Source: a bacterium (GTDB taxonomy: Bacteria; JAMOTN01). From it: a DNA stretch of 11,875 nt. Location of the stretch: positions 1 through 11,875 of the forward strand of contig JAMOTN010000037.1 in the NCBI GenBank assembly GCA_027062325.1, in the 5' to 3' direction. Under the pieces are notes generated by a model, which searched no databases, had not been told where the DNA came from, and was given only the letters and a program-made list of their open reading frames with translations. Each line of letters begins with the position of its first letter. Position 1 is the stretch's first letter. Below, piece after piece: positions 3,137 to 11,875 of the stretch. The translations under genes were made by a program, and so were the position numbers.

Positions 3137-3183
3137 CCTTTTAGTAAGGCAGATGGTCTGTTAGTTTTTCACTTTTAAAAGGC
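3136..3183 (+). terminator. Inverted repeat after the pseudouridine synthase, possible weak terminator
   Basis: GCCTT (3136-3140) and AAGGC (3146-3150) can form a 5-bp hairpin with a 5-base loop. Alternatively GCCTTTTA (3136-3143) pairs perfectly with TAAAAGGC (3176-3183), 8 bp around a 32-base interior. TTTTT at 3165-3169 lies inside that interior, so neither form is a textbook hairpin followed directly by a U-run. Its place at the end of the first gene cluster makes a termination or processing role possible but unproven. Confidence 0.3.
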
Positions 3184-3206
3184 AACTGGTTAGGTTAAAA
3201 TATAAG
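3173..3206 (+). promoter_or_regulatory. Candidate sigma70-type promoter with -10 TAAAAT
   Basis: TAAAAT at 3196-3201 matches 5 of 6 bases of the -10 consensus, overlapping TATAAG at 3201-3206. The only -35 at 17-base spacing is poor (TTTTAA, 3173-3178). A start near 3208 would put the small open frame at 3235 first in the rpoB-rpoC transcript. The call rests on consensus matching and on the position between two gene clusters. Confidence 0.3.
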
Positions 3207-3226
3207 AGTAAACTTAATGCAAAGGG

Positions 3227-3256
3227 TTGACGCTATGCAAAAAGTGTGCCTATTAC
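3227..3256 (+). promoter_or_regulatory. Candidate promoter for rpoB-rpoC, TTGACG-18-TATTAC
   Basis: TTGACG at 3227-3232 matches 5 of 6 bases of the -35 consensus. TATTAC at 3251-3256 matches 4 of 6 bases of the -10 consensus, with an 18-base spacer. A start near 3263 would give rpoB a leader of about 180 bases. It competes with the small open frame at 3235, whose start codon lies between the two boxes; both cannot be fully used by one transcript. Confidence 0.33.
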
Positions 3257-3411
3257 CTTTTTTAAACCCGGGTTTTGAAAGATTGATGAGAGTTTTGGCT
3301 GGGATGTTCGCTTTCTTTTTAGTGATTTTGATGGCTATGATGAATTTTATTTCCTTAGCTTATGATGGAGTTTTTCTGGATTTTAGAACCGTAATGGTAT
3401 TTTTTGCTTGA
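3235..3411 (+). CDS. Small hypothetical single-helix membrane protein
   Basis: This is a 58-residue frame between the pseudouridine synthase and rpoB. I chose ATG 3235 because AAAGGG (3221-3226) lies 8 bases upstream. ATG 3217, which would add six residues, has no such site, and an internal ATG at 3286 is also possible. From 3235 the protein has a basic segment (ERLMR) followed by one strongly hydrophobic helix at about residues 20-40 (AGMFAFFLVILMAMM). The start NPGFERLMRVLAG loosely recalls the first helix of small DUF2892/YgaP-type membrane proteins, but there is no second helix and no CPLY-type ending. Codon use resembles its neighbours. It ends 32 bases before rpoB. It could be a real small membrane protein, a decayed gene or chance. 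Confidence 0.4.
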   Translation: MQKVCLLPFLNPGFERLMRVLAGMFAFFLVILMAMMNFISLAYDGVFLDFRTVMVFFA

Positions 3412-3427
3412 AAGTATCTATCTACGA

Positions 3428-3437
3428 ATAGGGGGGA
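3428..3437 (+). promoter_or_regulatory. Ribosome binding site of rpoB (G-run type)
   Basis: ATAGGGGGGA ends 6 bases before ATG 3444 and fixes the rpoB start. It is a run of six G rather than the usual GGAGG, so it would pair with the anti-Shine-Dalgarno CCUCC partly through a G-U pair. rpoC has an almost identical site. Confidence 0.75.
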
Positions 3438-3443
3438 CCTGAT

Positions 3444-6400
3444 ATGAGAATTGAGAGGAGAGATGGCAAGCTGTTTATAAATTTTTCGAAACATAAGGAG
3501 CCAATTACACCACCGCATCTTATGCAGCTGCAGTTTGAGTCTTATTATGAACTTCTCCAACCTGATAAAGATCCTGACAAGAGGGAAAATAAGGGATTGG
3601 AGTCTGTATTTAGGGATCTATTTCCTTTGGTTGACAGAAATGGAAACAACGTTATAACTTACGATGGTTATCTTTTGGGAATTCAAAAGTGTGCAGGGTG
3701 CCCAGAACCGGGGGATAAGTGCTTGTACAACAAGTGCAATCATCCTCAAAAAAACTGCCATATTGTGAAGCTTGGAAATGCTTATTTCAGAGTTGAAAAG
3801 GATGAAGAAGAGTGCCGTAAGTTGAAGGAAACTTATGAGATACCGGTTAGGTTGAAGTTAACGCTTATAGATCAAAGAAGTGGAGAGAAAAGAGAAGAAA
3901 TTGTGACAGCTTTCTCTCTTCCTCTTATGACAGAACGTGGAACGTTTATAATCAATGGAACAGAAAAAGTAGTTGTTAGTCAGCTTATCAGGTCCCCTGG
4001 TGCATTCTATACTTACGATGCGCAGCGCAGAGTTTACGAGGGAAAGGTTTCCCCGGCTCAAGGAAGTTGGATTGAGTTTGAGCTTGATACCAGTAAGGGT
4101 TATATATACGTAAAGATGGATAGCCGTCGCCGTAAAATGCCAGTAACTTGGCTATTAAGGATGCTAGGTTATGACAGTAATATGATTCTTCAGTTATTTG
4201 ACAATAATGAATACATCAAGAAAACATTGGAGTTTAGCCAGGAAAAGTTTACTTCTATGGAGAAAGAAAAGCCTTATAGGGAAATAAGGAGTGAAGTTTA
4301 TAAGGAGATATTTAAGAAATTGAGAAATGAGAGTACAAATACAGCAGAGGATTATTTGAAAGGGTTATTTACCAATCCGAAACGTTACGACTTAACTGAG
4401 GTTGGAAGGTATAAAATTGAAAAAAAGTTCAATTTCGTGAGTATATGTGAAGGAAGAAAGGTGGCTAGGGATATAAAAATAGGAGATAAAGTTGTATTGA
4501 AATCTGGAGATTACTTAGAGGGTGAAAAACTTGATGTTTTGAAAAAGTTGGCAGATGAGGGATATGTAGATAAGATATATGTTTTCAACAGACGTGAAGA
4601 TAAAGAAGTTCCTGTTTGGGTTCACAGAAATGAAGAGATTGTTTTCTTAGGGGATTGGAATCGTTTGTGTGATGATGTTTTAGATGAGGAGTTAGCTGTT
4701 GATGTTTACATCGAGGATGCAGATGAGATAATTCCTGAAGGGACGCGTGTTAATGAGGATTTGCTGGAGACGCTTCTAGAAGCAGGAGTTCCAATGATAA
4801 AGGTGAGAGGAAGAACGAAGACTTACAAAGTAAAAGATCTCTTAACTCCTGAGTTGTACAAAGCGTTGAAAGAAGGATGGGAAGTTATAGGGAAAGATAG
4901 TGATAAGTATAGGCTAAACAGAGCAGGTTATGACAGATTTTTAGAGGAAGAGGAAGCAGTGGTTATAAGTCCAGAAGGAGAAGAGTACAAGATATCTTCT
5001 GATAAACTAAAAAATTTAAGAGAGGTTGTAGGGGCGATATATGTTCAGAAAGGATCTCGTAAGAAAAAAGTGGAAGATGCGGTACTTAAAGTTTTGACCA
5101 TGGAAGAGCTTCTTAGAATGTACGAGGATAAGGTTAAGGATATAACTGTAAAGCCTATAAGGGAAATAAGATTTACTGAGTACTTTGATAATATATTAGG
5201 CTTCAATGAAAATCGTGTGTTAGTTAGAAGGAGAATTTTGGGAAGGAAAGTTCTTCAGGATGTAATAGTTAAAGGCAAAGTGATTGTGAAAAAGGGTGAA
5301 GTGGTGGATGATGTTGTATTTCATAAGTTAATTGCTTCTCGTGTATTGTGGATAAAGGTTGAGAAGGGAAGAACTCTCACAAGGGATGACATAATTGATG
5401 CTTTGAGATATCTATTATATGTTACGTATGATGTTGGAGAGCTTGATGATATAGATCACATTGGAAATAGACGTATAAGAAGAGTGGGAGAGCTTATAAA
5501 AAATGAAATTAGAAAGGCATTACTTGGAAAGATGGAGAGGGAAACAGTTGATCAGCTGGCAACAAAGGATGGCAATAGTATAAGCAGTTTTATGAACTTT
5601 GGAGTTGTGAAGAATGCGATAAAAGAATTTTTCAATACTGGCCAGTTGTGTCAATTTATGGATCAGACGAACATTTTGGCAGAGCTTGAAAATAAGCGCC
5701 GTTTGAGTGCATTGGGGCCTGGTGGTTTGAAGAGAGAGAGAGCAACTTCTGAGGTTAGAGGTGTTCATCCATCACACTTTGGAAGAATTTGTCCTATTCA
5801 GACTCCAGAAGGACAGAATGCTGGTCTAATAGCATCTCTCACTGTGTATGGAAGAATAAATAAGTATGGTTTTATAGAGACACCACTTAGAAAGGTTGTA
5901 AATGGAAAGGTTACAGATGAGGTTGTTTACATGGAAGCTGGAGAAGAGGATAGGTATTACGTTGCTCCAGCTGATACTCCAGTTGATGAAAATGGAATGA
6001 TCATTCCTGAGTACGTGCCAGTGAAGGTTAAGACAGAAAATAGATATGAGTTTATTGAAGTTGAGAGAGAAAAGGTTCAGTACATGGGTGTATCTCCAAC
6101 TCAGATGGTAAGTGTGGGAAGTTCACTTATTCCTTTCTTGGAACATGACGATGCAAACCGTGCTTTGATGGGAACAAATATGCAAAGACAAGCGGTTCCT
6201 TTAATAAAGGCAGAAGCGCCGTTTGTTGCAACTGGTATGGAGGAAAGAGTTGTTGTTGATGCTATGGATTCGCTTGTATCCCCTGTAGATGGAGAAGTTA
6301 TATACGCGGATAGTTTGAGGATAGTTATAAAAGGAGAGGATGGAAAAGAATATGACCTAGAATTGCGTAAGTTTAAGAGAACGAACTCTAATAGTGTGTT

Positions 6401-8243
6401 TAATATGAAACCAATAGTTAAAATGGGAGATAAGGTAAAGCAAGGACAGGTTATTGCAGACGGTGAAGTTTCAGATAAGGGAAGATTGTCTGTTGGAAAA
6501 AATGTGTTGGTCTTCTTTATGCCTTATGATGGATACAACTTTGAGGACGCAATAGTGGCTAGTAGAGAATTGAACGAAAGGGATATATACACCTCTATTC
6601 ACATGAAGGAGCATGAGGTTGAGGCGCGTGAAGGTACAGGAAATGAAGGAGAGGAGATTACTGCAGATATTCCCGATTTGAGTGAAGAGCAGAGACGCAA
6701 GCTTGATGAAAGAGGTGTAGCTCGCATAGGAATTGAGCTTAAAAAGGGTGATGTTTTGGTTGGTAAAGTGGAGCCCAAGCCAGAGACGGAGACTACTTCT
6801 TTGGATAAATTGTTAAAAGCGATATTCAATCGTAAGAAGGACAACAAGAAGAATGTCTCCTATAAGCTAAAGAATGGAGAGGAAGGAAAGGTTGTCAAGG
6901 TGGAGTATCTGGATGGGAATGAGTACCATTTCAAAACAAATATAAAGACTTTGGTTAGAGTATTCTTGGTGCAGCGCCACAAATTAATGGAAGGAGATAA
7001 GATGGCAGGGCGTCACGGAAATAAGGGTGTTATATCTATCTTGGCTCCACGTGAAGATTTGCCAATGCTTGATGATGGAACTACTGCTCAACTTGTGCTT
7101 TCGCCGTTGGGTGTTCCATCGCGTATGAATGTTGGGCAGATATACGAAACCATTTTGGGGTGGACTGCCAAGCATCTTGGTTTTTACGCTATTACTCCGA
7201 TATTTGAGTCTCCAAAAGAAGATACAATAAAGAAACTCCTTGCATTGACGAGGTTGGCTAGAAAGAGGACGCTTAAATTGGCTAACGAGAATGCAGAAAT
7301 TGTAGGATACGTCAAGTTTGAGAAGTTGAATATCGACAGTAACGATAAATTGGTTGAGAAATTTGTGGAGAAGGGATTTGAGGAGGCTGTTTGGGAGACA
7401 GTCAAAGGAGTAAAAGCAGCTTTGTTTGATGCAGATTGGAATCTTGTAGGAGAGCTTGATACGAAGAGTAAGTTGTTCTTGGAGTCTTTGAAAGCGGGAG
7501 ATTGGACTTTGGCTCTCACTCCTGTTGATGAGATTGTATTTGAAACTCCATTTGTGAAAGTAAAAGAGAGAGTTTATGAGAAAGATGGATACAAGACAGT
7601 AGAAGTTAAAAGAGAGAGAAAAAAGGTTAAGTATAGGAAGCAGGTTGAAGTTCTTATTGACAGCTTTAAAAAGCTTTCTGCCTGGTTAGGAGAGACAGGT
7701 CAGGAGCTTGTAAGAGATGGAAGAACTGGTGAGTACATACATAATCCGGTTACGGTAGGATACATGTACATGTTAAAATTGCATCATTTGGTTGAGGAAA
7801 AGATACATGCAAGAGCTACTGGAAACTACGCTATGATTACCCAGCAACCGTTGGGTGGAAAAGCTCAGATGGGTGGTCAAAGGTTTGGAGAGATGGAAGT
7901 TTGGGCACTTGAGGCTTATGGTGCTGCCCATGCACTTCAAGAGATGCTCAGTATAAAGAGTGATGATATAGATGCACGTGAAGAAGTTTACAGAAATATA
8001 GTTAAGGGGAATCATTACGATGTTAAAACAAAGATGCCAGAGTCATTCAAAGTTTTGGTGCTTGAGCTTGCAAGTTTGGCTTTGAAAGTTGAGCTTCTTG
8101 ATGAAAAAGAGGTTAGGGAGCGATTTGGAAGGAATAGTGATGGAACATTTTTTATACCGCAGGATCTATTTTCTGAGGAGAGTCAGGAGGATAAAGAAGC
8201 AGAAGCTACAGCTGCCAAGAGGGTAAAAGAAATAAAGGGATAA
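3444..8243 (+). CDS. rpoB: DNA-directed RNA polymerase subunit beta (unusually long, 1599 residues)
   Basis: This is the beta subunit of the multisubunit RNA polymerase core, forming one pincer and half of the active site with beta'. In order I see the N-terminal PPHLMQLQ and VFRDLFP, the lobe motifs [15 protein letters not shown] and SQLIRSPG, and [11 protein letters not shown] (314-324). [10 protein letters not shown] follows at 668-677, then the Rif region (733-757, SALGPGGL) and [21 protein letters not shown] lies at 1030-1036 and [11 protein letters not shown] at 1185-1195. PLGVPSRMN and the C-terminal anchor [20 protein letters not shown] complete the core. E. coli beta has 1342 residues. 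The excess here comes from insertions at about residues 81-110 (Cys-rich), 331-642 and 1268-1415. The E. coli SI1 and SI2 insertions are missing from their usual places. Active-site Lys1065 of E. coli is Arg1178 here. The gene ends in TAATAA, 45 bases before rpoC. Confidence 0.98.
   Translation: [1599 protein letters not shown]
3684..3773 (+). other. Cys-rich insertion in beta (residues 81-110)
   Basis: Cys83, 86, 93, 98 and 105 give the spacing C-x2-C-x6-C-x4-C-x6-C, with His100 inside and Cys124 further on. The insertion separates the conserved tyrosine (YLLG) from the normal continuation, here [15 protein letters not shown], which usually follows directly as LGEPKYSVEEC. The spacing suits zinc or an iron-sulfur cluster. 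Metal binding is an inference from cysteine density only. Confidence 0.75.
4434..5369 (+). other. Large lobe insertion in beta made partly of repeated BBM-like modules (residues 331-642)
   Basis: In E. coli only about ten residues join YDLSAVGRMKF to the following DDII helix; here about 310 residues intervene. At least three segments share a module pattern: GR-x-V-A-x-D-I, a turn, V-I-x-K-x-G, then a helix and a V-x-x-I-x-V strand. They lie at residues 337-382 ([20 protein letters not shown]), 416-457 (ending [11 protein letters not shown]) and 600-642 ([20 protein letters not shown]). A fourth, weaker copy may span 499-539. The pattern matches the beta-beta' module (BBM1) known from E. coli beta SI1 and from the clostridial beta at this same site. 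There are no intein splice-junction residues. Confidence 0.65.
7245..7688 (+). other. Insertion near the C-terminal part of beta (about residues 1268-1415)
   Basis: Between [10 protein letters not shown] and [16 protein letters not shown] there are about 140 more residues than in short beta subunits such as those of Firmicutes. The segment is rich in Lys and Glu. It contains a stretch of about 30 residues (1372-1402) dominated by alternating charged and Val/Tyr residues, likely beta strands. I recognise no known domain. The boundaries are approximate because ITPIF at 1250 and the later LALTPV both resemble the conserved ATPVF. Confidence 0.55.
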
Positions 8244-8288: not shown

Positions 8289-11200
8289 ATGGGAAATAAT
8301 AGAAAAAATAGGTTTGAGGATGTGTTTAAGAGAGGAGTAGAAGGATTTGAAGCTGTAAGAATATCAATTGCTTCACCTGAGGATATAAGAAATTGGTCTT
8401 CTGGAAAGGTGGAGCTTTCGGAAACGTTGGATTACAGGACCTTTAAGCCCAAAGAGGGAGGACTGTTTTGTGAGAAAATTTTTGGTCCAGAGAAAGATTA
8501 TCGCTGTGCTTGCGGAAGATACAAGGATAAAAGATTTGAGGGACAGATTTGTGAGCATTGTGGGGTCGAGGTTACGACGAGCCGTGTTAGAAGAGAAAGA
8601 ATGGGGCATATAGAGTTGACCGCTCCCGTAGCGCATATATGGTATGTGAAAAATGGAATAATAAGTGCTCTTCTTGGTATAACTCAACGTGATTTAGAAG
8701 AAGTTTTACATTTTGCAAAGTATATAGTCCTTGATCCAGGTAACATTTTGAACAAAATGCAGCTTCTTACTGAAGAAGAATATCGTGAGTTGCGTGAAAA
8801 GTACGGTGAGGTATTTAGAGTTGGAAGAGGAGCTGAAGCTATAAGAGAGCTTTTGAGAGAAATAGATCTTGATAAGCTTGCAATGGAATTGGATCTTGAG
8901 ATGAAAGAGGCAGAGCAAAAGGGAGATAAGCAAAAGGCAGCTCGTTTGGCGAAACGCCTTCACATAGTAGAAAGCTTCAGGAGAAGCAAGCCTGAGCGTT
9001 TGGTGGATTTGTTGACAGGTAAAGAGGATCCAAAGAGAAAGAAGGAAGGATACATCAAGCCTGAGTGGATGATATTGGAAGTTATCCCAGTATTGCCGCC
9101 AGAGTTACGTCCAATGTTGAAGTTGGAGGGAGGAAGAATAGCCAGAGCTGACTTGAATGATCTTTATAGAAGGTTGATAAACAGAAATAAGCGTTTGAAG
9201 AAGCACCTTCAGAATAATGCTCCTGATCCAATAATTGCTAACGAAAAGAGACTGTTGCAGGAGGCTGTTGATGCATTAATAGACAATGCTAGATTGACTA
9301 GGCCAGTTGTGGGGAACAACAATCGTCGTTTGAAGAGTTTGACGGATCTTCTTGGTGGTAAGCAGGGAAGATTTAGAAGGAATTTGTTGGGGAAGCGTGT
9401 TGATTACTCTGGACGTAGTGTCATAGTTATAGGTCCAAAGCTCAAAATTCATCAATGTGGGTTGCCGCAAGAGATGGTTCTTGAGTTGTTCAAACCGTTT
9501 ATAATTCATCACCTTGTTAATAAGACTGGTAAAGCAAGGAGTGTTCCCAAAGCTGATGAGATGATAAGAAAGGCAGATCCACAGATAATGCCAATTGTTT
9601 CCCAAATAATAAAGAAACATCCAGTTCTTTTAAACCGTGCTCCAACACTGCATAGGCCATCTATTCAAGCGTTTGAGCCAATAATGGTCAAAGGTAAGGC
9701 TATAAAGATACCGGCGCTTGTCTGTACGGCGTTCAATGCGGATTTTGATGGAGACCAAATGGCGGTTCATGTGCCATTGCTCCATGAGTCAGTAGCTGAA
9801 GCTTCCTATCTTATTCAAGCAAATTATCAAATATTTTCTCCAGCTCATGGTAAGCCACTTGCTACTCCAACTCAAGATATGACACTCGGATGCTATTACT
9901 TGACTAGGATGTTGACTTCCAAAGAGGTTGAGGAGATTGATATAACGAATTTTCATGCGAATCCGAGATTGCTGAGGAGAAGTGCTGATGTTTATCGCTT
10001 GCCTAGTGGGGAGATAATTCTTCAAAGTGGTGAAGAGTTGACTCAAGATAAAGTTGAACAGCTTAAAAAAGCTGGTATTACTAAGGTGAAAATATACAAG
10101 CAGAAGATATTCTCTACAGAGGAAGAGCTGATGGTTGCTTATGAAAATGGTAAGGTGTCTCTCCATGAGGCTGTTTATGTAAGAGTAAGAGAAGGAGAAG
10201 ACAATAAGCTTTCTGACAAGTATATAACAACTTGTGTGGGAAGGGTTATATTCAATCAGTTGTTGCCTGCAGGATTGCGATTCATGAACACTTTGATGAC
10301 GAAGGGTGAGTTGAACTCGCTTGTTGTTAAGTGCCACAAAAAATATGGATTAGATAGAACGGTAAAACTTCTTGATGATATAAAGGAGCTTGGGTTTAAA
10401 TGGGCAACGATTTCTGGAACTTCATTCTCGATAGAAGAGTTGAGAATACCGCCTGCAAAAGCTCAGATAATAAAAGAAGCAGAAGAAAGGACAAAGAGAA
10501 ACAGGGAGCAGTTTGAGAAGAAAGCAATAACGGCAGATGAGAGAAGACAGAATGACATAGATACGTGGATTCACGTTACAGAGCAGGTAACCGATGAGAT
10601 GATCCAGATCTTTAAGAAGGAAGAAGAGGAAGGGAAGTACAATAGTATATATGCAATGGCTTTCTCAGGAGCACGTGGAAATATCCAGCAGGTACGTCAA
10701 CTTGCGGCTATGCGTGGTTTGATGTCTAATCCTAAGGGAGAGATTATGGACTATCCTATTAAGTCGAACTTTAAAGAAGGTTTGAAGATGTTTGAGTACT
10801 TTATTTCCACTTATGGAGCCCGTAAGGGAGTTGTTGATACGGCGTTGAGAACAGCTGACTCTGGATACTTGACACGTGAGTTGGTTGATGTTGCCCAAGA
10901 TGTTGTTATAACTGCAGATGATTGTGGAGATACCAGTGGATTTGAAGTGCATCCTTTGCGTGAGATGAGGACTGTTCAGAATATGCATATAGATGAGGTT
11001 ATGATACCTCTTGAAGAAAGAATTTACGGACGTTATTTGGCACGCGATGTTGTACATCCTAAGACTGGCGAAGTGATAGTTAAGGCGGGAACACTGTTGT
11101 TGGAAGAAGAGTGTGATCTTATAAAGAGAGCAGAGGTTGAGATGGAGGTTACTCCTCAGATAATAGGGAAAGTTACAGCAACTGTTGTTCAGGATGCAGA

Positions 11201-11875
11201 TGAGAGGATTGTTGTTGCAGCTGACAAGGTTATAACTGAGCATCTCTATAAGATTTTGGTAGCGCGTGGAATAAAGAAGATAAGAGTTAGGCCGCGTGTG
11301 TTTATCCGTTCGCCTATAACATGTAAGATGCGCTATGGGATGTGTAGAAAGTGTTATGGATTGGATCTTTCGACTCACAGGGAAGTTGCTCTTGGAGAGG
11401 CAGTTGGAATCATTGCAGCTCAATCGATTGGAGAGCCGGGAACACAGCTTACGATGAGAACATTCCACACCGGGGGTGTTGCAGAGGCACGTCGAGTTCA
11501 GGTCAAGGCGCCGACTTCTGGAACAGTTATCCTTGATTACTTGCGTTGGGAGTACAAGACTGAGAAGAAAAGTGTCTTGACGGAAGATTACTCTTACGAG
11601 GGTGAAGATGATAACGCGGTGGCGATAAAGAGTGATGAAGGACTTGAAGAAGATACCAGGAGAATTGTTCGTGAGGGTTACATATTAATAGAACGTGAGG
11701 ATGGAACACGTGAGAAGTGTGATGTGCCACCGGGTGCGGTTCTTGAAAGAAACTTGAAAAATGGTATAAAAGTAAGAGCCGGAGATACTCTTGCAGAGTA
11801 CAATCCAAATCAAGTTGTTTCTAAAATTAAGGGTGTTGTGAGCTTTGCAAATATAGGGGAAAAAGATGGTAAACC
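8289..11875 (+). CDS. rpoC: DNA-directed RNA polymerase subunit beta', 3' end beyond window
   Basis: This is the largest core subunit, carrying the catalytic Mg-binding aspartates. The first 1195 residues are visible. Zinc site 1 is Cys73, 75, 88 and 91, followed by [14 protein letters not shown]. The lid is [15 protein letters not shown], and switch 2 is [12 protein letters not shown] (367-378). The catalytic loop NADFDGDQM has Asp485, 487 and 489. The bridge helix is [20 protein letters not shown] (793-812). Zinc site 2 is Cys879, 1012, 1019 and 1022. The trigger loop starts at [13 protein letters not shown] (1051-1063). There is no large Thermus/Thermotoga-type insertion in the N-terminal part. 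Extra segments lie at about 541-606 and between the zinc-2 ligands, and an SI3-like insertion begins after the trigger helix. Family lengths suggest that a few hundred residues lie beyond the window. GTG 8286 is an alternative start. Confidence 0.98.
9909..10106 (+). other. BBM-like extra segment in beta' after the catalytic loop region (residues 541-606)
   Basis: E. coli has only a short linker between YYMTR and the helix here written [13 protein letters not shown]. This protein has about 40 more residues. Residues 564-604 read as a module of the beta-beta' type: [19 protein letters not shown], then a helix, then AGITKVKIY. The resemblance to the beta modules is by eye. Confidence 0.5.
11028..11294 (+). 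repeat. Tandem duplicated beta-beta' module in beta' between zinc-2 cysteines
   Basis: The normal single module is present at residues 914-954 ([21 protein letters not shown]). It is followed at 960-1002 by a second, diverged copy: [20 protein letters not shown], then a helix, then [12 protein letters not shown]. The second copy runs into the RSPITC zinc ligand, where other beta' proteins have only one module. The repeat is visible at protein level only; the DNA copies are well diverged, so the duplication is old. Confidence 0.6.
11487..11875 (+). other. SI3-like trigger-loop insertion in beta' (start only)
   Basis: After [20 protein letters not shown] the chain does not continue with DITQGLPRVEELFEAR, as in beta' proteins without SI3. 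Instead it has sandwich-barrel-like sequence: [35 protein letters not shown] and then [10 protein letters not shown]. This aligns by eye with E. coli SI3 (VPYGAVL, GGETVANWDP, VSGFVRF). The end of the insertion lies outside the window. Confidence 0.7.

Follow-up and report, generated by a model that had tools for sequence, protein, structure and literature searches.

The window, by which the whole stretch of 11,875 nucleotides analysed here is meant, comes from an uncultured bacterial lineage and contains nadC, a sugar-type ABC permease gene, pth, a gene for an RluB-type pseudouridine synthase, rpoB and the start of rpoC. Ahead of rpoB (side observation at 3137-3443) come pth and the pseudouridine synthase gene instead of rplK-rplA-rplJ-rplL, which are the usual genes before rpoB. 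The features on which the analysis is centred are as follows.

3444..8243, plus strand: rpoB, RNA polymerase beta subunit, 1599 amino acids (Pfam and NCBIfam rpoB models)
3681..3785, plus strand: lineage-specific insert in beta domain 1 (the protrusion), residues ~80-114 (alignments against insert-less and insert-bearing betas)
3690..3692, plus strand: Cys83, codon TGT (invariant in the 17-sequence alignment; TGT/TGC mix among 33 sequences)
3699..3701, plus strand: Cys86, followed by an invariant Pro (alignment and codon comparison)
3720..3722, plus strand: Cys93 (alignment and codon comparison)
3735..3737, plus strand: Cys98 (alignment and codon comparison)
3756..3758, plus strand: Cys105 (alignment and codon comparison)
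8289..11875, plus strand: rpoC, beta' subunit, running off the window
8505..8561, plus strand: N-terminal zinc-binding domain of beta', ordinary and intact (sequence)

Translation of the plus strand between 3690 and 3758 gives CAGCPEPGDKCLYNKCNHPQKNC, residues 83-105 of RpoB, and confirms the spacing C-x2-C-x6-C-x4-C-x6-C that the sequence-only reading had ascribed to a five-cysteine cluster in beta. Alignment with insert-less betas bears out its claim that the cluster lies in an insertion in the N-terminal part of the protein, the length being now put at about 35 residues rather than about 30, and the position being ahead of uD2, within the N-terminal half of domain 1. RpoB has ten cysteines in total, five within 23 residues (83, 86, 93, 98 and 105) and the remaining ones at 124, 335, 409, 736 and 783; when ten cysteines were placed at random, a comparable cluster arose in 1 of 20,000 trials. 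Cys124 was considered as a member of the cluster and rejected, since it is conserved in most betas with or without the insert. A nearby histidine had also been pointed out, and histidines are present at positions 100 and 106, but they are not conserved in the 17-sequence alignment. RpoB carries other unusual insertions in mid-protein, roughly between residues 340 and 640.

Conservation of the five cysteines in relatives had been set as a test of the cluster. No relative of the window genome (G000) below the rank of domain was present in the genome collection surveyed; a contig scan for close relatives retrieved only rpoB genes of SAR86 and Ignavibacteriota, both without the insert, and no insert-bearing rpoB was found in viral contigs. 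When the N-terminal 251 amino acids were searched against 386 varied genomes, three matches stood out (G118, G256 and G383, with E values of 1e-55 to 1e-65, the next being 1e-44), all from one phylum, here called the G118 phylum. Within this phylum rpoB was matched in 36 of 39 genomes, the set of five cysteines being complete in 32 of these 36 and incomplete in four, all of family f259; the insert-bearing betas share about 40-47% protein identity with that of the window. When the window was aligned with 16 divergent relatives, which are 39-44% identical to it, all five cysteines proved invariant, so that the outcome of the test was favourable. In the alignment of the insert, five of the eight invariant columns are the cysteines. 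The motif can be written approximately as LGL-x2-C-[KRA]-x-C-P-x(5-9)-C-x4-C-x3-[EQ]-[KR]-x-C-x(7-9)-[FY]-R-[IV], with a cysteine spacing of C-x2-C-x(6-10)-C-x4-C-x6-C across the window and its relatives. Moreover, both TGT and TGC are used at each of the five codons (33 sequences), and it is therefore the amino acid that is kept. Judged from these alignments, the five-cysteine cluster cannot be put down to chance in a single gene.

With a profile made from just the insert, 32 of the 39 genomes of the G118 phylum were matched, while in about 341 genomes outside it just two partial matches were obtained (E 0.001 and 0.008), both lying in short open frames and covering 20-21 of the 44 positions. 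The insert has the character of a lineage-specific beta insertion, that is, some 35 residues missing from most betas and restricted to a phylum. The possibility of a mobile domain shared with other proteins was rejected, as each of nine carrier genomes gave one strong match, in rpoB. No Pfam family matched the insert even at an E value of 10, and comparison with solved structures gave no convincing match.

In an RpoB tree built with the insert columns removed, the window groups with the G118 phylum with a support of 100/100 (100 in a quick tree). The branch of the window is very long, about one change per site, and we are unsure whether it belongs within the phylum or next to it. Since the insert-free tree joins the two at full support, the insert would be ancestral and long retained, probably inherited from the common ancestor of the window and the G118 phylum, a single origin by descent being the simplest reading.

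On the usual view, bacterial RNA polymerase has two zinc sites, and beta' is the subunit that carries them. The statement of the sequence-only reading that bacterial beta has no standard metal site at this place agrees with a catalogue of beta insertions, which lists five sites in uD2, uD3, uD4 and uD5 and none in uD1, and in whose text the words zinc and cysteine are absent (PMC11515920). A literature search, with subscription papers mostly outside its scope and an earlier mention of the insertion point possible, found no metal site reported in bacterial beta. The BEAN and HABAS insertions (beta-i nomenclature of Lane et al.) resemble the five-cysteine insert in being phylum-restricted and located inside a conserved beta domain, but they sit in uD2-uD5, whereas the present insert sits in uD1, and with only about 35 residues it belongs to neither. 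Nevertheless, the statement needs one amendment, since other phyla carry at this very point a four-cysteine insert resembling the beta' zinc finger.

This second insert, C-x-C-G-x(9-12)-C-x2-C, was found in several other phyla and families (G010, G031, G063, G021 and others), and its profile matches the zinc-binding domain of beta' with an hhalign probability of 97% (E 5.6e-11, 48% identity over 31 residues); it is apparently a copy of the beta' zinc finger in beta. The four cysteines are carried at the beta N-terminus in L044-L048, L050, L051, L053-L055 and L058-L061, and the set has been lost in L049, L052, L056 and L057. The N-terminal zinc-binding domain of beta' (CxCG...CxxC) is, like the five-cysteine insert, a small cysteine-rich surface knuckle of the same enzyme, and a clear relative of it occupies the same insertion point in those other phyla. 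The five-cysteine insert might thus be a degenerate copy of that domain as well, as the identical insertion point and the similar flanks would suggest, but the comparison speaks against it: hhalign gives the five-cysteine insert a probability of 0.1% and an E value of 0.5 against the beta' domain, whose CxCG-x(9-12)-CxxC spacing it does not share and which belongs to another subunit. In addition, the match between the two inserts comes mainly from the common flanking beta sequence, and the two types fall in different regions of the RpoB tree. A degenerate copy is therefore very improbable, and the four-cysteine and five-cysteine inserts are, by these profile comparisons, unrelated. Nor is the beta cluster a replacement for the beta' domain, since the latter is intact in the window. 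As regards beta' itself, the open frames of the G118 phylum (L105, L107-L109, L111, L118, L195 and L196) run to about 1985-2370 codons, the usual length being about 1200-1500 codons, and a very large insertion in this subunit seems likely.

The four genomes of family f259 keep the insert, but Cys83 and Cys93 are gone in all of them and the other cysteines in most, so that two, one or none of the five remain. A near all-or-none loss of this kind would be typical of an abandoned metal site. General zinc saving as its cause was ruled out, as ribosomal protein L31 of f259 keeps its zinc cysteines and the pair of f259 genomes examined have retained both zinc sites of beta'. Zinc ribosomal proteins such as S4 occur in C+ and C- forms, with the cysteine set present or absent in related lineages (PMC3087516); the present case is similar in that the set is kept or lost among relatives, although here the protein is RNA polymerase and the family that lost the cysteines retains a zinc-type L31. 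Heme-copper oxidase genes were found in the related families f259, f263 and f264 (G383 and G416-G418 versus G414 and G415), whereas none was detected in ten other sampled carrier genomes, including that of the window (83.9% complete), which suggests that most carriers are probably anaerobes. The loss in f259 probably took place in a lineage respiring oxygen. However, f263 and f264 have heme-copper oxidases together with all five cysteines, and oxygen respiration alone does therefore not force the loss.

We infer, with good support, that the five-cysteine insert binds a metal. The short stretch offers at least four conserved ligands, in fact five invariant cysteines, and a metal site is the best reading because these are invariant in divergent relatives; the strict conservation of the five, their near all-or-none loss and the lack of other conserved ligands point in the same direction. 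Disulfides or metal-free thiol switches would accommodate an odd number of cysteines, all of them conserved, but in a cytoplasmic enzyme of organisms mostly without heme-copper oxidase they are highly unlikely, and a metal site accounts better for the conserved CxxCP knuckle and for the near all-or-none loss. AlphaFold predictions made from the single sequence and from a five-sequence input, whose other four members lack the insert, were of very low confidence: the mean pLDDT was 33 and 42, and most of the insert scored under 40.

As to the metal, zinc appears likelier than an iron-sulfur cluster. Zinc is the default metal for a small cysteine knuckle, and it suits the case since the site tolerates what is probably an aerobic life in f263 and f264, where all five cysteines are kept. 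Some observations stand against it: four of the five cysteines would suffice for a mononuclear zinc site, the insert matches no known zinc family, and the sole family that lost the cysteines has heme-copper oxidases and yet a zinc-type L31, leaving room for an oxygen-sensitive cofactor. The cysteines might accordingly hold an Fe-S cluster, such as a [4Fe-4S] cluster in which four of them serve as ligands and the fifth is spare or an alternative, coupling the assembly or activity of the polymerase to iron or redox state, as has been suggested for archaeal Rpo3. The sequence-only reading had raised the sensing of redox or metal state, a role that is conjectural here. The conserved ligands are cysteines only, with no histidine, the ten sampled carriers outside f263 and f264 showed no heme-copper oxidase, and the oxidase-bearing f259 gave up these cysteines and kept the zinc sites of L31 and beta', all of which would accord with such a cluster. 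Ferredoxin-type domains have the motif CxxCxxCxxxCP, from which the spacing of the insert differs, and the insert has no fold or family match; moreover, with the five cysteines retained in f263 and f264, the oxygen link rests on one loss event. There is a precedent in archaea: in Methanosarcina acetivorans the assembly of the polymerase is promoted by [4Fe-4S] clusters of Rpo3 (subunit D) (PMC5300874). Rpo3 likewise is a core subunit of RNA polymerase with a lineage-specific inserted cysteine cluster, many of whose carriers are anaerobic (PMC5300874), but it differs in having a ferredoxin-like [4Fe-4S] domain, in another subunit and with another motif. Overall, we regard an Fe-S cluster in the insert as doubtful. 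The fuller proposal, in which the main RNA polymerase of the clade would carry a beta-protrusion Fe-S cluster tying transcription or assembly to iron or oxygen, later shed by one oxidase-bearing family, is unlikely.

The explanation that we favour, as slightly more likely right than wrong, is that the protrusion houses a small metal knuckle, most likely with zinc and with a structural or docking role. A single metal ion, most likely Zn2+, would be bound by four or all five of the cysteines and would fold a loop of about 35 residues that would otherwise be floppy; the folded knuckle at the edge of the polymerase could then stiffen that edge, or touch either the upstream DNA or some factor that is attached to domain 1. 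Among the proteins that bind beta domain 1 are those with a RID of the CarD or Mfd type, and the idea that the insert replaces these partners was rejected: both types occur in the genome of the window and in most of the carriers tested, and therefore the insert coexists with them and is no stand-in.

If this reading is correct, the central enzyme of gene expression would possess a third metal site, namely a strictly conserved five-cysteine site in beta that has been kept through a very long divergence, while an Fe-S cluster, if that were the cofactor, would represent an independently evolved bacterial counterpart of the archaeal RNA polymerase Fe-S clusters. The occurrence of unrelated cysteine-rich inserts at one point of beta, in distant parts of the bacterial tree, suggests that small metal knuckles may preferentially arise at the protrusion edge and, as enzymes with and without the knuckle can be compared, its role would be open to experimental testing.
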